NCBI GenBank assembly: GCA_947165785.1
Contig: CAMVBS010000010.1
Coordinates: forward strand, 1-48,458
Reading direction: 5' to 3'
Source of the DNA: an uncultured Clostridia bacterium
Lineage (GTDB): Bacteria; Bacillota; Clostridia; Saccharofermentanales; Saccharofermentanaceae
Length of the DNA stretch: 48,458 nt
Of this stretch, positions 40,766-44,615 are shown in pieces. The position numbers and the translations under genes were made by a program. Under the pieces are notes generated by a model, which saw nothing but the letters and a program-made list of their open reading frames with translations, was not told where the DNA came from and did not search any database. Positions within the stretch are counted from its first letter, which is position 1; each line of letters opens with the position of its first letter.

Positions 40766-40795
40766 TTGACACGCTGTGATATAATTACCTATCAT
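40766..40795 (+). promoter_or_regulatory. Probable cysE promoter
   Basis: TTGACA (40766-40771), an 18-bp spacer and TATCAT (40790-40795) would start transcription near 40802, about 30 nt before the cysE ATG. The nearer TATAAT (40780-40785) is only 8 bp from the TTGACA and would need another -35. Confidence 0.55.
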
Positions 40796-40832
40796 GGTAA
40801 TATGTTTTCGAGAGAAAGCAGGAGGAGCGGTT

Positions 40833-41753
40833 ATGGGACAAGTATCGGATCCGGAGATAAATGAATTGGTAGACCTGATCCTTGACGATTACGAGGATGA
40901 CAGGACCATTAATAAGATCGATATCCACAATCAGCCGGACAAGCAGGCTGTTACGGATGTTATCGATAAGCTCATGAAGATACTATTCCCGGGTTACTAC
41001 AGTGACAAGGTCTATAAGATCTACAGTCTCAAGAACAACATGTCCGCTGCGATCGAAGACGTTGTATTTCATCTGAAAAAGCAGATCTCCATAGTCCTTA
41101 AGTACACGGACAAGAACGAAGAAGGCCCTTCCGACGAACTTGACGAGAAGGCCAAGGAGATCACGCTCGAATTCATGCGCAAGATCCCCGAGATCAGAGC
41201 CGTCCTCGAGACTGATATCGACGCGGCCTTCGAGGGAGACCCGGCAGCGTACAGCAAGGACGAGATCATCCTTTCTTATCCGGGATTTTATGCCATAGCA
41301 GTCAATCGTATCGCTCATGAACTCTTTCTTCTCGGGGTGCCGATCATTCCGCGTATGATGACGGAGCACGCACACAGCATCACGGGAATCGACATCCACC
41401 CTGGTGCAACCATCGGAAGGTACTTTTTTATCGACCACGGTACGGGTATCGTTATCGGTGAGACCACGACTATCGGCGAGCACGTTAAGATCTACCAGGG
41501 CGTTACTCTCGGCGGCCTTTCCACGCGAGGCGGCCAGAAGCTCCACGGCAAGAAACGTCACCCTACCATCGGAAATAACGTTACGATCTATTCCGGTGCA
41601 TCGATCCTCGGAGGCGAGACAGTCATCGGTGATGACGTTGTGGTCGGCGGTAATACGTTTATCGTTAATTCAGTCGAGAAGGGTACCAGGGTCAGCGCCC
41701 GCAAGCAGGAGCTCAAGTTCAAGAGCAACAGCACCAGATCCAAGGAGAAATAA
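40833..41753 (+). CDS. cysE: Serine O-acetyltransferase, EpsC type
   Basis: CysE acetylates serine to O-acetylserine, the carbon precursor of cysteine. The 306-residue product begins at ATG 40833 behind AGGAGG; the in-frame ATG at 40794 has no such site. The N-terminal 150 residues are the helical domain found in EpsC-type enzymes. The left-handed beta-helix carries HPGATIGRYFFIDHGTGIVIGETT (active-site His and Asp), KIYQGVTLGGLSTRGGQKLHGKKRHPTI (acceptor-site loop) and GNNVTIYSGASILGG, GDDVVVGGNTFIVNSV hexapeptide repeats. The C-terminal Lys-rich tail is where cysteine synthase and Cys feedback act in relatives. Confidence 0.94.
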   Translation: MGQVSDPEINELVDLILDDYEDDRTINKIDIHNQPDKQAVTDVIDKLMKILFPGYYSDKVYKIYSLKNNMSAAIEDVVFHLKKQISIVLKYTDKNEEGPSDELDEKAKEITLEFMRKIPEIRAVLETDIDAAFEGDPAAYSKDEIILSYPGFYAIAVNRIAHELFLLGVPIIPRMMTEHAHSITGIDIHPGATIGRYFFIDHGTGIVIGETTTIGEHVKIYQGVTLGGLSTRGGQKLHGKKRHPTIGNNVTIYSGASILGGETVIGDDVVVGGNTFIVNSVEKGTRVSARKQELKFKSNSTRSKEK

Positions 41754-42506: not shown

Positions 42507-42542
42507 TTACCTATTGACACGGTAGGTAAGTGGTAGTATAGT
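42507..42542 (+). promoter_or_regulatory. Promoter with palindromic operator, alcohol dehydrogenase operon
   Basis: TTGACA (42514-42519), a 17-bp spacer and TATAGT (42537-42542) form a good promoter. TTACCTA (42507-42513) and TAGGTAA (42523-42529) are perfect inverted repeats that flank the -35 with a 9-bp centre, an ideal repressor site. Confidence 0.75.
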
Positions 42543-42575
42543 CAACACCATAAAGAAACGAAAGGAGACGCGAAG

Positions 42576-42698
42576 ATGACTTACGGTTACACAAGAACGG
42601 ATACTATGATGTGTTGTCGAATGTTTAACTCCCGGGCAGTAAAGATGGCTCGTGCGCAGGAAACATCAGCCTCGCGTCTCGTAACCCAAAGATGTTAA
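42576..42698 (+). CDS. Met/Cys-rich leader ORF of the alcohol dehydrogenase operon
   Basis: ATG 42576 follows AAAGGAG in the 5' leader between the promoter and the alcohol dehydrogenase gene. The 40-residue product has DTMMCCRMFN at residues 9-18, five sulfur amino acids within six positions, and ends QRC-stop. The rest is Arg/Ser/Ala-rich, with no resemblance to a folded protein. Its codons overlap one arm (42629-42638) of a long-range pairing with the terminator region (42725-42734). This suggests a stalling peptide that senses charged tRNA-Cys and/or tRNA-Met. It could also be a genuine small Cys protein. Confidence 0.65.
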   Translation: MTYGYTRTDTMMCCRMFNSRAVKMARAQETSASRLVTQRC

Positions 42699-42760
42699 AG
42701 CAGTAAGACATCATTTGTGCCATTTGCCCGGGAGCTAAATCAAAAGCCCCGGCTTTTTTT
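42629..42760 (+). promoter_or_regulatory. Candidate Cys/Met-responsive attenuator
   Basis: The terminator is CCGGG-A-GCT (42728-42736) with AGCCCCGG (42745-42752), an 8-nt loop and CTTTTTTT to 42760. CTCCCGGGCA (42629-42638, inside the leader ORF) is perfectly complementary to TGCCCGGGAG (42725-42734), which contains the terminator 5' arm. The two structures exclude each other, so the first pairing is an antiterminator. A ribosome stalled at the Cys-Cys codons (42612-42617) would end just before 42629 and leave that arm free. Flowing ribosomes would cover it. A further short hairpin (42778-42796) lies near the ribosome binding site of the next gene. Confidence 0.6.
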
Positions 42761-42812
42761 CGGGAAAAATAATTCGTGCGGCAAGAAGTGCCGCGACAAA
42801 GGAGTAACACAG

Positions 42813-43973
42813 ATGATCGGATTTGAATACTATAACCCTGCAAAGATCGTTTTCGGTGAGGGTAGTGAGAACAGCTTAGTAAGCCTTCTTAAAGATCAAA
42901 AAGTAAAGTCTTTGCTGCTTGTCTACAGCGGAGCATTTGTTAATGAACTAGGAATATATGATGTGATCACAAAAGCGGTCGAGGAGCTTGGGATCAAGTT
43001 CAGCGAGAGCGATAAGGTTGTACCGAATCCGAGCATCGAACTCGTAAGGGAACTTGTCGAGCAGGGCAAGAAGGACGAAGTGGATTTCGTACTTGCAGTC
43101 GGAGGCGGAAGTTCGATCGACACGGCTAAGGCAGTAGCGATCGGTATCCCGTATGACGGAGATGTCTGGGACTTCTTCTCCAAGGGCGTATCGCCTGAGA
43201 CGGTCCTCAGCATCGGAGTTATCGCAACAACGGCATCCAGCGGATCGGAGACATCCAATTGCGCGATCCTTTCAAGCGGTGAGTGGAAGCTCGGTTTTGA
43301 AGATGACAGGATCATTCCGAAGTTCGCGATCATGAATCCCAGATACACGATCAACCTTCCGCCTTATCAGACATTCGTAGGTATCGCTGACGTACTGTCA
43401 CATCTTCTCGAGAGATACTTCTCAGACGAGAAGAATTCGGATACGACGGACTACCTCATCGAAGGCGCGATCAAGGCCCTTACGATAAATGCGAGAAGGC
43501 TCCTCGAAGATCCTAAGGATATAAATGCAAGAGCAGAGATCCAGTGGCTCGCGAGCGTGGCTCACAACAACTTCCTCGATGCGGGAAGAAGAGCGGACTG
43601 GGGCTCGCATAGGATCGAGCACGAGCTTTCGGCGCAATATAACATCACCCACGGTGAGGGAATGGCGATCGTTTTTGTCGCATGGACGAAGTACATCGCC
43701 AAGATCAAACCATGGAGACTCGCACTTTTGGCGAGCAGAGTATACGGAGCAGATCCGTATGACCTGAGTGAAGAGCAAAGAGCACTTTTCCTTTCCGAGG
43801 AGCTGGAAGGATTTTTCAGGAAACTCGGCGTCAAGACAAAGCTTTCCGAGCTGAGCATCGACGATAAGGACTTCAAGGTCATGGCAGATCGAGCTACCAA
43901 GAACGGTAAAGTTGGTCATTACGTACCGATAGATTCGCAGGACATACAGGAAATCTTAAGATTAGCACTTTAA
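42813..43973 (+). CDS. Iron-containing alcohol dehydrogenase, YqhD/BdhA type
   Basis: The 386-residue NAD(P)H-dependent enzyme starts at ATG 42813 behind AAAGGAG. It begins FEYYNPAKIVFGEG, typical of butanol-dehydrogenase/YqhD proteins. The cofactor loop is AVGGGSSIDTAKAVA; metal-site ligands lie in FVGIADVLSHLLERYF (Asp, His) and DWGSHRIEHELSAQYNITHGEGMAIV (two His). YqhD-type enzymes reduce a broad range of toxic aldehydes to alcohols using NADPH. The partner gene (AhpD-like, 33 bp downstream), the repressor-type operator and the Cys/Met-rich leader suggest a response to aldehyde or thiol-depleting stress (inference). Confidence 0.93.
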   Translation: MIGFEYYNPAKIVFGEGSENSLVSLLKDQKVKSLLLVYSGAFVNELGIYDVITKAVEELGIKFSESDKVVPNPSIELVRELVEQGKKDEVDFVLAVGGGSSIDTAKAVAIGIPYDGDVWDFFSKGVSPETVLSIGVIATTASSGSETSNCAILSSGEWKLGFEDDRIIPKFAIMNPRYTINLPPYQTFVGIADVLSHLLERYFSDEKNSDTTDYLIEGAIKALTINARRLLEDPKDINARAEIQWLASVAHNNFLDAGRRADWGSHRIEHELSAQYNITHGEGMAIVFVAWTKYIAKIKPWRLALLASRVYGADPYDLSEEQRALFLSEELEGFFRKLGVKTKLSELSIDDKDFKVMADRATKNGKVGHYVPIDSQDIQEILRLAL

Positions 43974-44006: not shown

Positions 44007-44561
44007 ATGGCAAGGATCAAATTATTGGAACAGAACGAAGTAACAGGCGCAGAGAAGGAGCGCTATGATGAGCTCGCAGGCAGAAATGCCGTAACTAACA
44101 TGAAGAGAGGCCTTTTGAACGACGCAGCAACATACGATGCATTCATGGCATGGTACACATCATGGAACCGTCTCGTAGAAGTTATCGGCGAGAAGGATGC
44201 GGTATTGTATGCACACGCTATCTCTACAACCAACTCATGCCAGCTCTGCTCGCTCTTCTTCATCAGCGACGTTAAGGGTCTGGGTCTTGACCCGCACAAC
44301 CTTCAGTATGACAAGAAGGAGCAGGTCCTCGCAGATCTTGCACAGTCCATCGTTAAGGATCCTACAAACGTATCCGACGAGATCTTCGTAAGACTTCGCG
44401 AGTTCTTCAACGACAGAGAGATAGTAGTTATCGTCGGCTTCGCAGGCCAGATGATCGCAACCAACAACTTCAACTCTGTTCTTCAGATCAACGTTGACCA
44501 GAGACTTTTGCCTATCATCAACGAGTTCAAGCCTGCAACTTGGAGAAAAGACATTAAATGA
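44007..44561 (+). CDS. AhpD-like / carboxymuconolactone decarboxylase-family protein
   Basis: The 184-residue all-helical protein contains the CxxC pair C78-Q-L-C81 in HAISTTNSCQLCSLFF, the position of the AhpD active site. The canonical ExxCxxCxxxH proton-relay Glu and His are not present (Asn and Phe stand there), so it is not a standard AhpD. It may be a thiol-disulfide reductase or a redox sensor paired with the alcohol dehydrogenase. AAAGGAG precedes the ATG. It is the second and last gene of the operon and ends in a strong bidirectional terminator. Confidence 0.85.
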   Translation: MARIKLLEQNEVTGAEKERYDELAGRNAVTNMKRGLLNDAATYDAFMAWYTSWNRLVEVIGEKDAVLYAHAISTTNSCQLCSLFFISDVKGLGLDPHNLQYDKKEQVLADLAQSIVKDPTNVSDEIFVRLREFFNDREIVVIVGFAGQMIATNNFNSVLQINVDQRLLPIINEFKPATWRKDIK

Positions 44562-44579
44562 TCATCTGATACTATAAAG

Positions 44580-44615
44580 ATGCCGTCTCACGATTCGTGT
44601 GAGGCGGCATTTTTC
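44580..44615. terminator. Bidirectional terminator, AhpD-like gene / MATE gene
   Basis: ATGCCGTCTCAC (44580-44591) pairs with GTGAGGCGGCAT (44599-44610, one G-U); T-rich tail at 44611-44615. The two operons converge here. Confidence 0.88.

Follow-up and report, generated by a model that had tools for sequence, protein, structure and literature searches.

A conserved leader family before sulfur amino-acid genes of Clostridia: a probable cysteine-sensing transcription attenuator

Why should a short reading frame rich in methionine and cysteine codons stand, together with an intrinsic terminator, before an operon for an alcohol dehydrogenase and a small CxxC protein? This arrangement is found in a 48,458-nucleotide stretch of DNA (hereafter the window) from an uncultured Clostridia bacterium of the family Saccharofermentanaceae, and all window features discussed below lie on its forward (+) strand. 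The leader ORF (42576-42698) is preceded by the Shine-Dalgarno sequence GGAG (42564-42567), has 40 codons, encodes MTYGYTRTDTMMCCRMFNSRAVKMARAQETSASRLVTQRC and ends in a Cys codon, TGT, followed by TAA. Its codons 11-16, ATG ATG TGT TGT CGA ATG (42606-42623), specify Met-Met-Cys-Cys-Arg-Met, with the two Cys codons at 42612-42617. After a gap of 11 nt comes a segment, CTCCCGGGCA (42629-42638; arm B), of which TGCCCGGGAG (42725-42734; arm D) is the exact 10-nt reverse complement, and arm D runs into the 5' arm of the terminator. The Met/Cys-rich leader, the 11-nt gap and the perfect complementarity had all been claimed in a sequence-only reading of this locus and are borne out here; its coordinates and numbers are right throughout, and we add the 40-codon length of the ORF and its course through arm B.

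The terminator (42728-42760) has a stem of CCGGGAGCT (42728-42736) and AGCCCCGG (42745-42752), followed by seven T residues (42754-42760), with a folding energy of -13.1 kcal/mol. As D overlaps its 5' arm, the B:D antiterminator and the D:E terminator are mutually exclusive. Inside B:D lies a second antiterminator helix, in which ATGGC (42645-42649) pairs with GCCAT (42719-42723). A further pairing joins the Shine-Dalgarno region of the leader, AAAGGAGACGCGA (42561-42573; arm A), to the late part of the ORF, CCTCGCGTCTC (42670-42680; arm C), and takes the form of GGAGACGCGA with CCTCGCGTCTC in the window; in relatives arm C can alternatively fold into a local hairpin inside the antiterminator. 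Since A:C encloses B, it crosses B:D. The ORF itself reads through B, with its stop codon 57 nt beyond that arm. The segment 42618-42740 folds with a z-score of -4.5 (none of 200 shuffles as good), and the value for the full leader, -1.3, is uninformative.

Searching the window genome with this region recovered a second copy (33 bp, 97% identical, E = 1e-8), whose leader encodes MYKTVSMMCCRMLNSRANMWPERCCALDL and whose B, D, terminator and promoter operator are the same as those of the window copy. The gene after it is an O-acetylhomoserine sulfhydrylase (TIGR01326, 1e-185), which argues that the locus is a sulfur amino-acid leader rather than a curiosity. With a peptide-level pattern, 24 copies were recovered from 188 genomes of the order, spread over 19 of them, and none with the pattern reversed as a control; these leaders share MCCRM-NSRA, B, D and the terminator, and are followed by Cys/Met PLP enzymes and binding lipoproteins. 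A covariance model (R1) built from 18 pattern copies, the window copy among them, matched 81 of the 115 genomes of the family and 16 of the 391 of the class. Eight of the class matches fall outside the genus: five have recognisable leaders (families f32, f61, f62 twice and f29) and three are chance. In a sample of the phylum, three further genomes outside the class matched, each before O-acetylhomoserine sulfhydrylase-like genes, with the core peptides ACCCRM, LCCCCRM and VCRM. Three weak model matches (L113, L114 and L115) were rejected for want of a leader. Matches on the opposite strand are artefacts of the palindromic CCCGGG arms.

To look more widely, the pattern ATGTGYTGYCGAATG-N9-CGGG was scanned over 85,000 species genomes, giving at least 119 stretches, of which 80 loci are listed; the records among these 80 include Saccharofermentans, Lachnospiraceae, Butyrivibrio, Ruminococcaceae, Mageeibacillus and Christensenellaceae. 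Two matches (L185 and L200) are chance, having neither an attenuator nor a sulfur amino-acid gene after them, and one locus (L149) contains a run of N. At L201 (2852-2879) and L143 (3569-3596), on contigs binned as Succinivibrionaceae or Aeromonadales, the attenuator and operator stand before O-acetylhomoserine sulfhydrylase-like genes, a placement attributable to either horizontal transfer or misbinning.

The genes behind the element are telling, because the pattern is blind to them and their association with it is thus independent evidence. The 76 genes that follow the listed pattern matches comprise, by Pfam, 44 Cys_Met_Meta_PP, 18 NlpA, 4 SBP_bac_3 and one PALP protein, so that at least 67 of the 76 are sulfur amino-acid enzymes or transporters. 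None of the Pfam-annotated genes following the listed relatives was recognised as cysS. Often more than one copy of the element is present per genome, standing before biosynthesis, uptake and regulator genes. At L096 (3366-3484) and L125 (3944-4062) it is a LysR-type regulator-like gene that follows the attenuator, so that a transcription factor may be among its targets too. Two diverged Cys/Met-rich leaders, MYMCMFRM at L111 (4347-4472) and EICCCMCMCES at L112 (3925-4048), occur in a single genome of another family; of the genes behind them one encodes a MetN-like ABC ATPase and the other is S-adenosylmethionine synthetase-like.

Comparison across relatives indicates that the leader reading frame is conserved. 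An in-frame start with a Shine-Dalgarno sequence is found in 68 of 70 relatives, against 2 and 7 in the control frames. Core codons and arm C are separated by a whole number of codons in 37 of 43 relatives; the spacing from the core to the non-coding arm D shows no preferred phase (23/24/23). As the core Cys codons of the 80-locus set were imposed by the search pattern, enrichment was counted from later codons only: downstream of the core, 9.2% (119/1291) are Cys codons versus 1.45% in long window ORFs, an approximately six-fold excess, and 41 of the 70 relatives have a Cys within the last three leader codons. The codon CGA, rare in this genome, precedes 37 of these 119 later Cys codons. All 70 leader stops lie beyond B, by 24-69 nt; hence a ribosome that does not stall must cross B.

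The core codons are further constrained at the nucleotide level. The Arg codon (42618-42620 in the window) is always CGA (24/24 and 14/14 pattern matches), though the pattern allowed every Arg codon and CGA makes up 0.26% of window codons. At the two core Cys positions TGT is favoured over TGC by 60:10 and 64:6. Three loci (L098, L099 and L100) keep the CGA and have lost the second Cys. One way to explain such wobble-level constraint would be slow decoding of CGA, acting as a timer for the ribosome.

The pairings were assessed in a set of 71 diverse relatives, in which the three antiterminator helices were counted. In the B:D helix 95.5% of cells are paired, and 5 of its 10 pairs show double changes; all 5 pairs of the second helix show them, as do all 7 of the hairpin within this inner helix. 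Over the whole antiterminator 87% of cells are paired, versus 31-52% in control versions slid along the sequence, and 17 of the 22 pairs have double changes. Doubly changed cells number 67, against 18.7 after shuffling (none of 500 shuffles as high). Conservation, with compensatory changes, thus extends to the long complementarity; it is also seen for the Cys codons, as the sequence-only reading would lead one to expect. For A:C, arms were exchanged between loci: the cognate pairing averaged -17.1 versus -12.3 kcal/mol for non-cognate arms in the first data set, and -16.0 versus -13.5 kcal/mol over 66 loci (none of 10000 permutations as good in either), although the pairing is weak at some individual loci. 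The same exchange for B:D gave -23.1 for cognate and -22.3 for non-cognate arms (8/10000); it is low in power as the arms are almost invariant, so that the pair counts were used instead. A hairpin with a T-run is found at the terminator position in 63 of 70 relatives and in nearly as many of the shuffled controls (55/70), a comparison weakened by the self-complementarity of D.

Upstream of the leader lies a sigma-70-like promoter, TTGACA-17 nt-TATAGT (42514-42542), with 11 of 12 consensus matches and the end of its -10 box 34 nt before the leader start codon. Around the -35 box is an inverted repeat, TACCTA-N9-TAGGTA (42508-42528), a probable repressor operator with the sequence ACCTATTGACANNGTAGG. 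In the window genome the exact ACCTATTGACANNGTAGG occurs only upstream of the two leaders (in the second case at L003 2631-2648). Allowing three mismatches, the operator is found within 200 nt upstream in 64 of the 75 listed database relatives, the other 11 being at background (at least six mismatches). As it is present before 64 of these 75, initiation and attenuation are probably coupled in most members. The attenuator is kept without the operator in the remaining 11, and also at L107-L109 and L111. Close to the second leader is a gene for an Rrf2-family regulator (L003 1475-1873, minus strand), a candidate for the operator-binding protein.

The ORF, its codons and frame, the pairings with their covariation and the gene association directly support an attenuator, and the sulfur-amino-acid attenuator proposed in the sequence-only reading is upheld by the conserved leader, codons and pairings and by the Cys/Met genes found behind the element elsewhere. 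We consider it very likely that the element is a ribosome-mediated transcription attenuator sensing charged tRNA-Cys, with sensing of Met in addition a possibility. We infer stalling, read-through and the direction of the response as follows. The ribosome would trail RNA polymerase along the 40 codons of the leader. If cysteine is plentiful, it would pass the Cys codons and cover B, so that B:D does not form, the D:E terminator does, and transcription ends near 42760. Under a shortage of cysteine it would stall at TGT-TGT, its leading edge just ahead of B; the free B would then pair with D, the two inner helices would form, and the operon would be transcribed because the terminator is blocked. 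A:C, by engaging the Shine-Dalgarno sequence with the late ORF, might act as an anti-antiterminator and block re-initiation where the leader is untranslated or finished. The operator over the -35 box would add a second layer of control, at initiation.

Masked folding, an equilibrium calculation that says nothing on timing, agrees with this scheme in the window. With a ribosome masked at the second Cys codon, B:D has a probability of 0.59 and D:E of 0.20; with one masked on B the values are 0 for B:D, 0.59 for D:E and 0.61 for A:C; and the RNA without a ribosome favours D:E (0.50) over B:D (0.12). Over 61 loci the stalled and on-B states go in the same direction as in the window, less sharply: B:D exceeds D:E in 38 of the 61 when stalled, and in 35 of the 61 without a ribosome, a state with no clear preference. 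Once the ribosome is placed at the stop, the window copy folds B:D again. Since a stop beyond B leaves B free once more, the model needs either A:C or tight coupling of ribosome and polymerase, by which D and E would be synthesised before B is uncovered, and we favour both being at work. A fuller version of the mechanism can be offered only tentatively, and is on balance doubtful: the invariant UGU-UGU-CGA pause codons, with a slow CGA next to Cys, would set the timing of ribosome and polymerase, the Shine-Dalgarno sequence would be recaptured by the 3' coding part such that no transcript is read twice and those left untranslated terminate as well, and the operator would be a second cysteine-linked layer.

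Several other explanations need to be weighed against a tRNA-Cys attenuator. The nucleotide-level conservation of the motif, with its invariant CGA (24/24 and 14/14, for a codon at 0.26% in the window) and its preference for TGT (60:10 and 64:6), might be expected of an arrest peptide or codon-specific pause, in which M-C-C-R-M or UGU-CGA stalls the ribosome on a small molecule such as free cysteine, SAM or an antibiotic rather than on uncharged tRNA-Cys. Arrest peptides, however, usually conserve the peptide and not the wobble bases; Cys codons are enriched along whole leaders, including the last three codons (41/70); the runs of CCC or CCCC in other classes fit tRNA sensing; and L098, L099 and L100 keep the CGA without the second Cys. 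We therefore judge this explanation unlikely. A scheme of control at initiation only, with a repressor on ACCTATTGACANNGTAGG over the -35 box and the hairpins serving as a constitutive partial terminator, appears less likely still. It would account for an operator that precedes both leaders of the window genome, is exact nowhere else there and recurs in 64 of 75 listed relatives, as well as for the nearby Rrf2-family gene, but leaves unexplained an antiterminator kept by compensatory change over many families and the loci that have the attenuator without the operator (11/75 listed relatives, L107-L109 and L111). The operator and attenuator layers may of course both act.

That the leader is instead a metabolite riboswitch or another protein-binding leader, with an incidental ORF, strikes us as highly improbable. 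Such a view could point to the several conserved helices, the z-score of the B-D segment (-4.5) and the abundance of SAM riboswitches and T-boxes in these genomes; it is opposed by the lack of any match to Rfam, also with the threshold relaxed, and by the in-frame Shine-Dalgarno-led start (68/70), the codon-phased spacing and the strong Cys codon enrichment. We give equally little credence to the window copy being a decaying, non-working remnant left by loss of an NlpA gene. NlpA (PF03180) is indeed absent from the genome and lies between leader and dehydrogenase in the nearest relatives; however, the window copy scores 120 bits, among the highest for the model (of which it is one of the 18 training sequences), its B:D, terminator and Shine-Dalgarno:C pairings are perfect, and a leader stands directly before the dehydrogenase in five genomes of another genus. 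We hence return to the cysteine attenuator as the preferred reading: the element is real and conserved and, by all available sequence evidence, a cysteine-sensing attenuator, one family of which appears to control genes for making and importing Cys/Met across Clostridia.

What, then, does the window copy control? The first gene behind it encodes an iron-containing alcohol dehydrogenase of 386 aa (42813-43973; Pfam PF00465, 4e-40, and PF25137, 2e-30) and the second an AhpD-like protein of 184 aa with a CxxC motif (44007-44561), after which a predicted terminator (44576-44614) ends the operon. The AhpD-like protein has no match in a Pfam search and weak NCBIfam matches below cut-off, YciW-related and peroxidase-related, the former being a weak lead. 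Two genes upstream of the leader is a serine O-acetyltransferase-like gene of the cysE family (40794-41753; NCBIfam TIGR01172, 3e-48, below its cut-off). Orthologues of the dehydrogenase are present in 77 of 113 family genomes, and their leaders are conserved: 66 of the 77 have a same-strand model match upstream, 55 at 900-1500 nt and 6, the window included, within 250 nt. In the near relative L253 the intervening space holds an NlpA lipoprotein gene (655-1488), giving the order attenuator-NlpA-ADH-AhpD, which would normally be that of the operon. No gene of the NlpA family (PF03180) is found anywhere in the window genome, the gap 42753-42812 included; its loss there would explain why the leader adjoins the dehydrogenase. 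The window operon thus looks like part of the sulfur amino-acid regulon, its own tie to Cys/Met genes running only through the NlpA-linked relatives. On their account, a long-standing place in a sulfur amino-acid operon is more probable for it than a role in stress. The earlier suggestion that control of the dehydrogenase and CxxC protein by Cys/Met links electrophile stress to gene expression is not supported, as the neighbours of the element are sulfur amino-acid genes.

Amino-acid genes of Firmicutes are thought to be regulated mainly by T-boxes and riboswitches. In placing Cys/Met genes under terminator control, the leader resembles those Firmicutes leaders of sulfur genes that contain a T-box or SAM riboswitch, but neither T-box (RF00230) nor SAM riboswitch (RF00162) matches were found by cmscan in the window or leader region, and no Rfam 15 family matched the element at gathering or permissive thresholds. 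SAM riboswitches (36/38) and T-boxes (38/38) persist in the carrier genomes, so that the attenuator is an addition to them and not a general substitute. Like the classical trp, his, leu and ilv attenuators, it combines a leader having codons for the regulated amino acid, a mutually exclusive antiterminator and U-tailed terminator, and genes of the same pathway. It differs from them in sensing, as predicted, cysteine, in its occurrence in Clostridia, in the invariant CGA and in the use of one leader family over many unlinked operons. The conserved pairing of the Shine-Dalgarno sequence with the late ORF also sets it apart from classical attenuators as a group; similar shielding is known in E. 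coli trpL. A ribosome at the stop codon does not cover the antiterminator arm (stop 24-69 nt past B), unlike in the trp sub-type, this coverage not being a trait of all attenuators.

Leader peptides in the usual role of T-boxes have precedents in Firmicutes, namely the reported attenuators of hisS/hisZ and lysQ (PMC2965389, PMC4833913); these concern histidine or lysine and few genes, whereas here cysteine, many genes and a far wider spread in Clostridia are involved. One of the two closest parallels is uORFC-8-2 before cysS in Rhodobacterales, a uORF with Cys codons and a terminator for which Cys-tRNA attenuation was predicted (PMC8632094). Both have tandem Cys codons in a uORF followed by a terminator; however, compared by description, uORFC-8-2 belongs to Alphaproteobacteria and a cysteinyl-tRNA synthetase gene, with mostly UGC Cys codons inside the first stem, and the present family to Clostridia and biosynthesis and uptake genes, with UGU codons and some 90 nt between B and D. 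In Actinobacteria, leaders with Cys codons precede cys operons and have no terminators (PMC1262725), and the poly-cysteine uORF of M. smegmatis was called translation attenuation (Canestrari 2020, as cited in PMC13236596). The mycobacterial uORFs, the other close parallel, are likewise short Cys-rich ORFs before cysteine genes, but are leaderless and lack a conserved terminator (PMC1262725, PMC13236596), whereas here a Shine-Dalgarno-led ORF and an intrinsic terminator precede the gene. A literature search, largely of papers outside subscription journals, returned neither a leader of this kind for cysteine from Clostridia (Lachnospiraceae included) nor MCCRM; together with the Rfam search, likewise non-exhaustive, this agrees with the sequence-only reading, which knew of no described system of this form in Clostridia. 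Ribosome-mediated attenuation itself being already known, what appears to be new is a cysteine-sensing transcription attenuator family in Clostridia.

The probable cysteine attenuator recurs over several Clostridia families, mostly in rumen and gut species, with culturable carriers among Butyrivibrio and Lachnospiraceae. Its sequence tag, ATGTGTTGTCGAATG...CCCGGG, may serve to locate genes under the control of cysteine, including the dehydrogenase/AhpD pair of as yet unassigned role.
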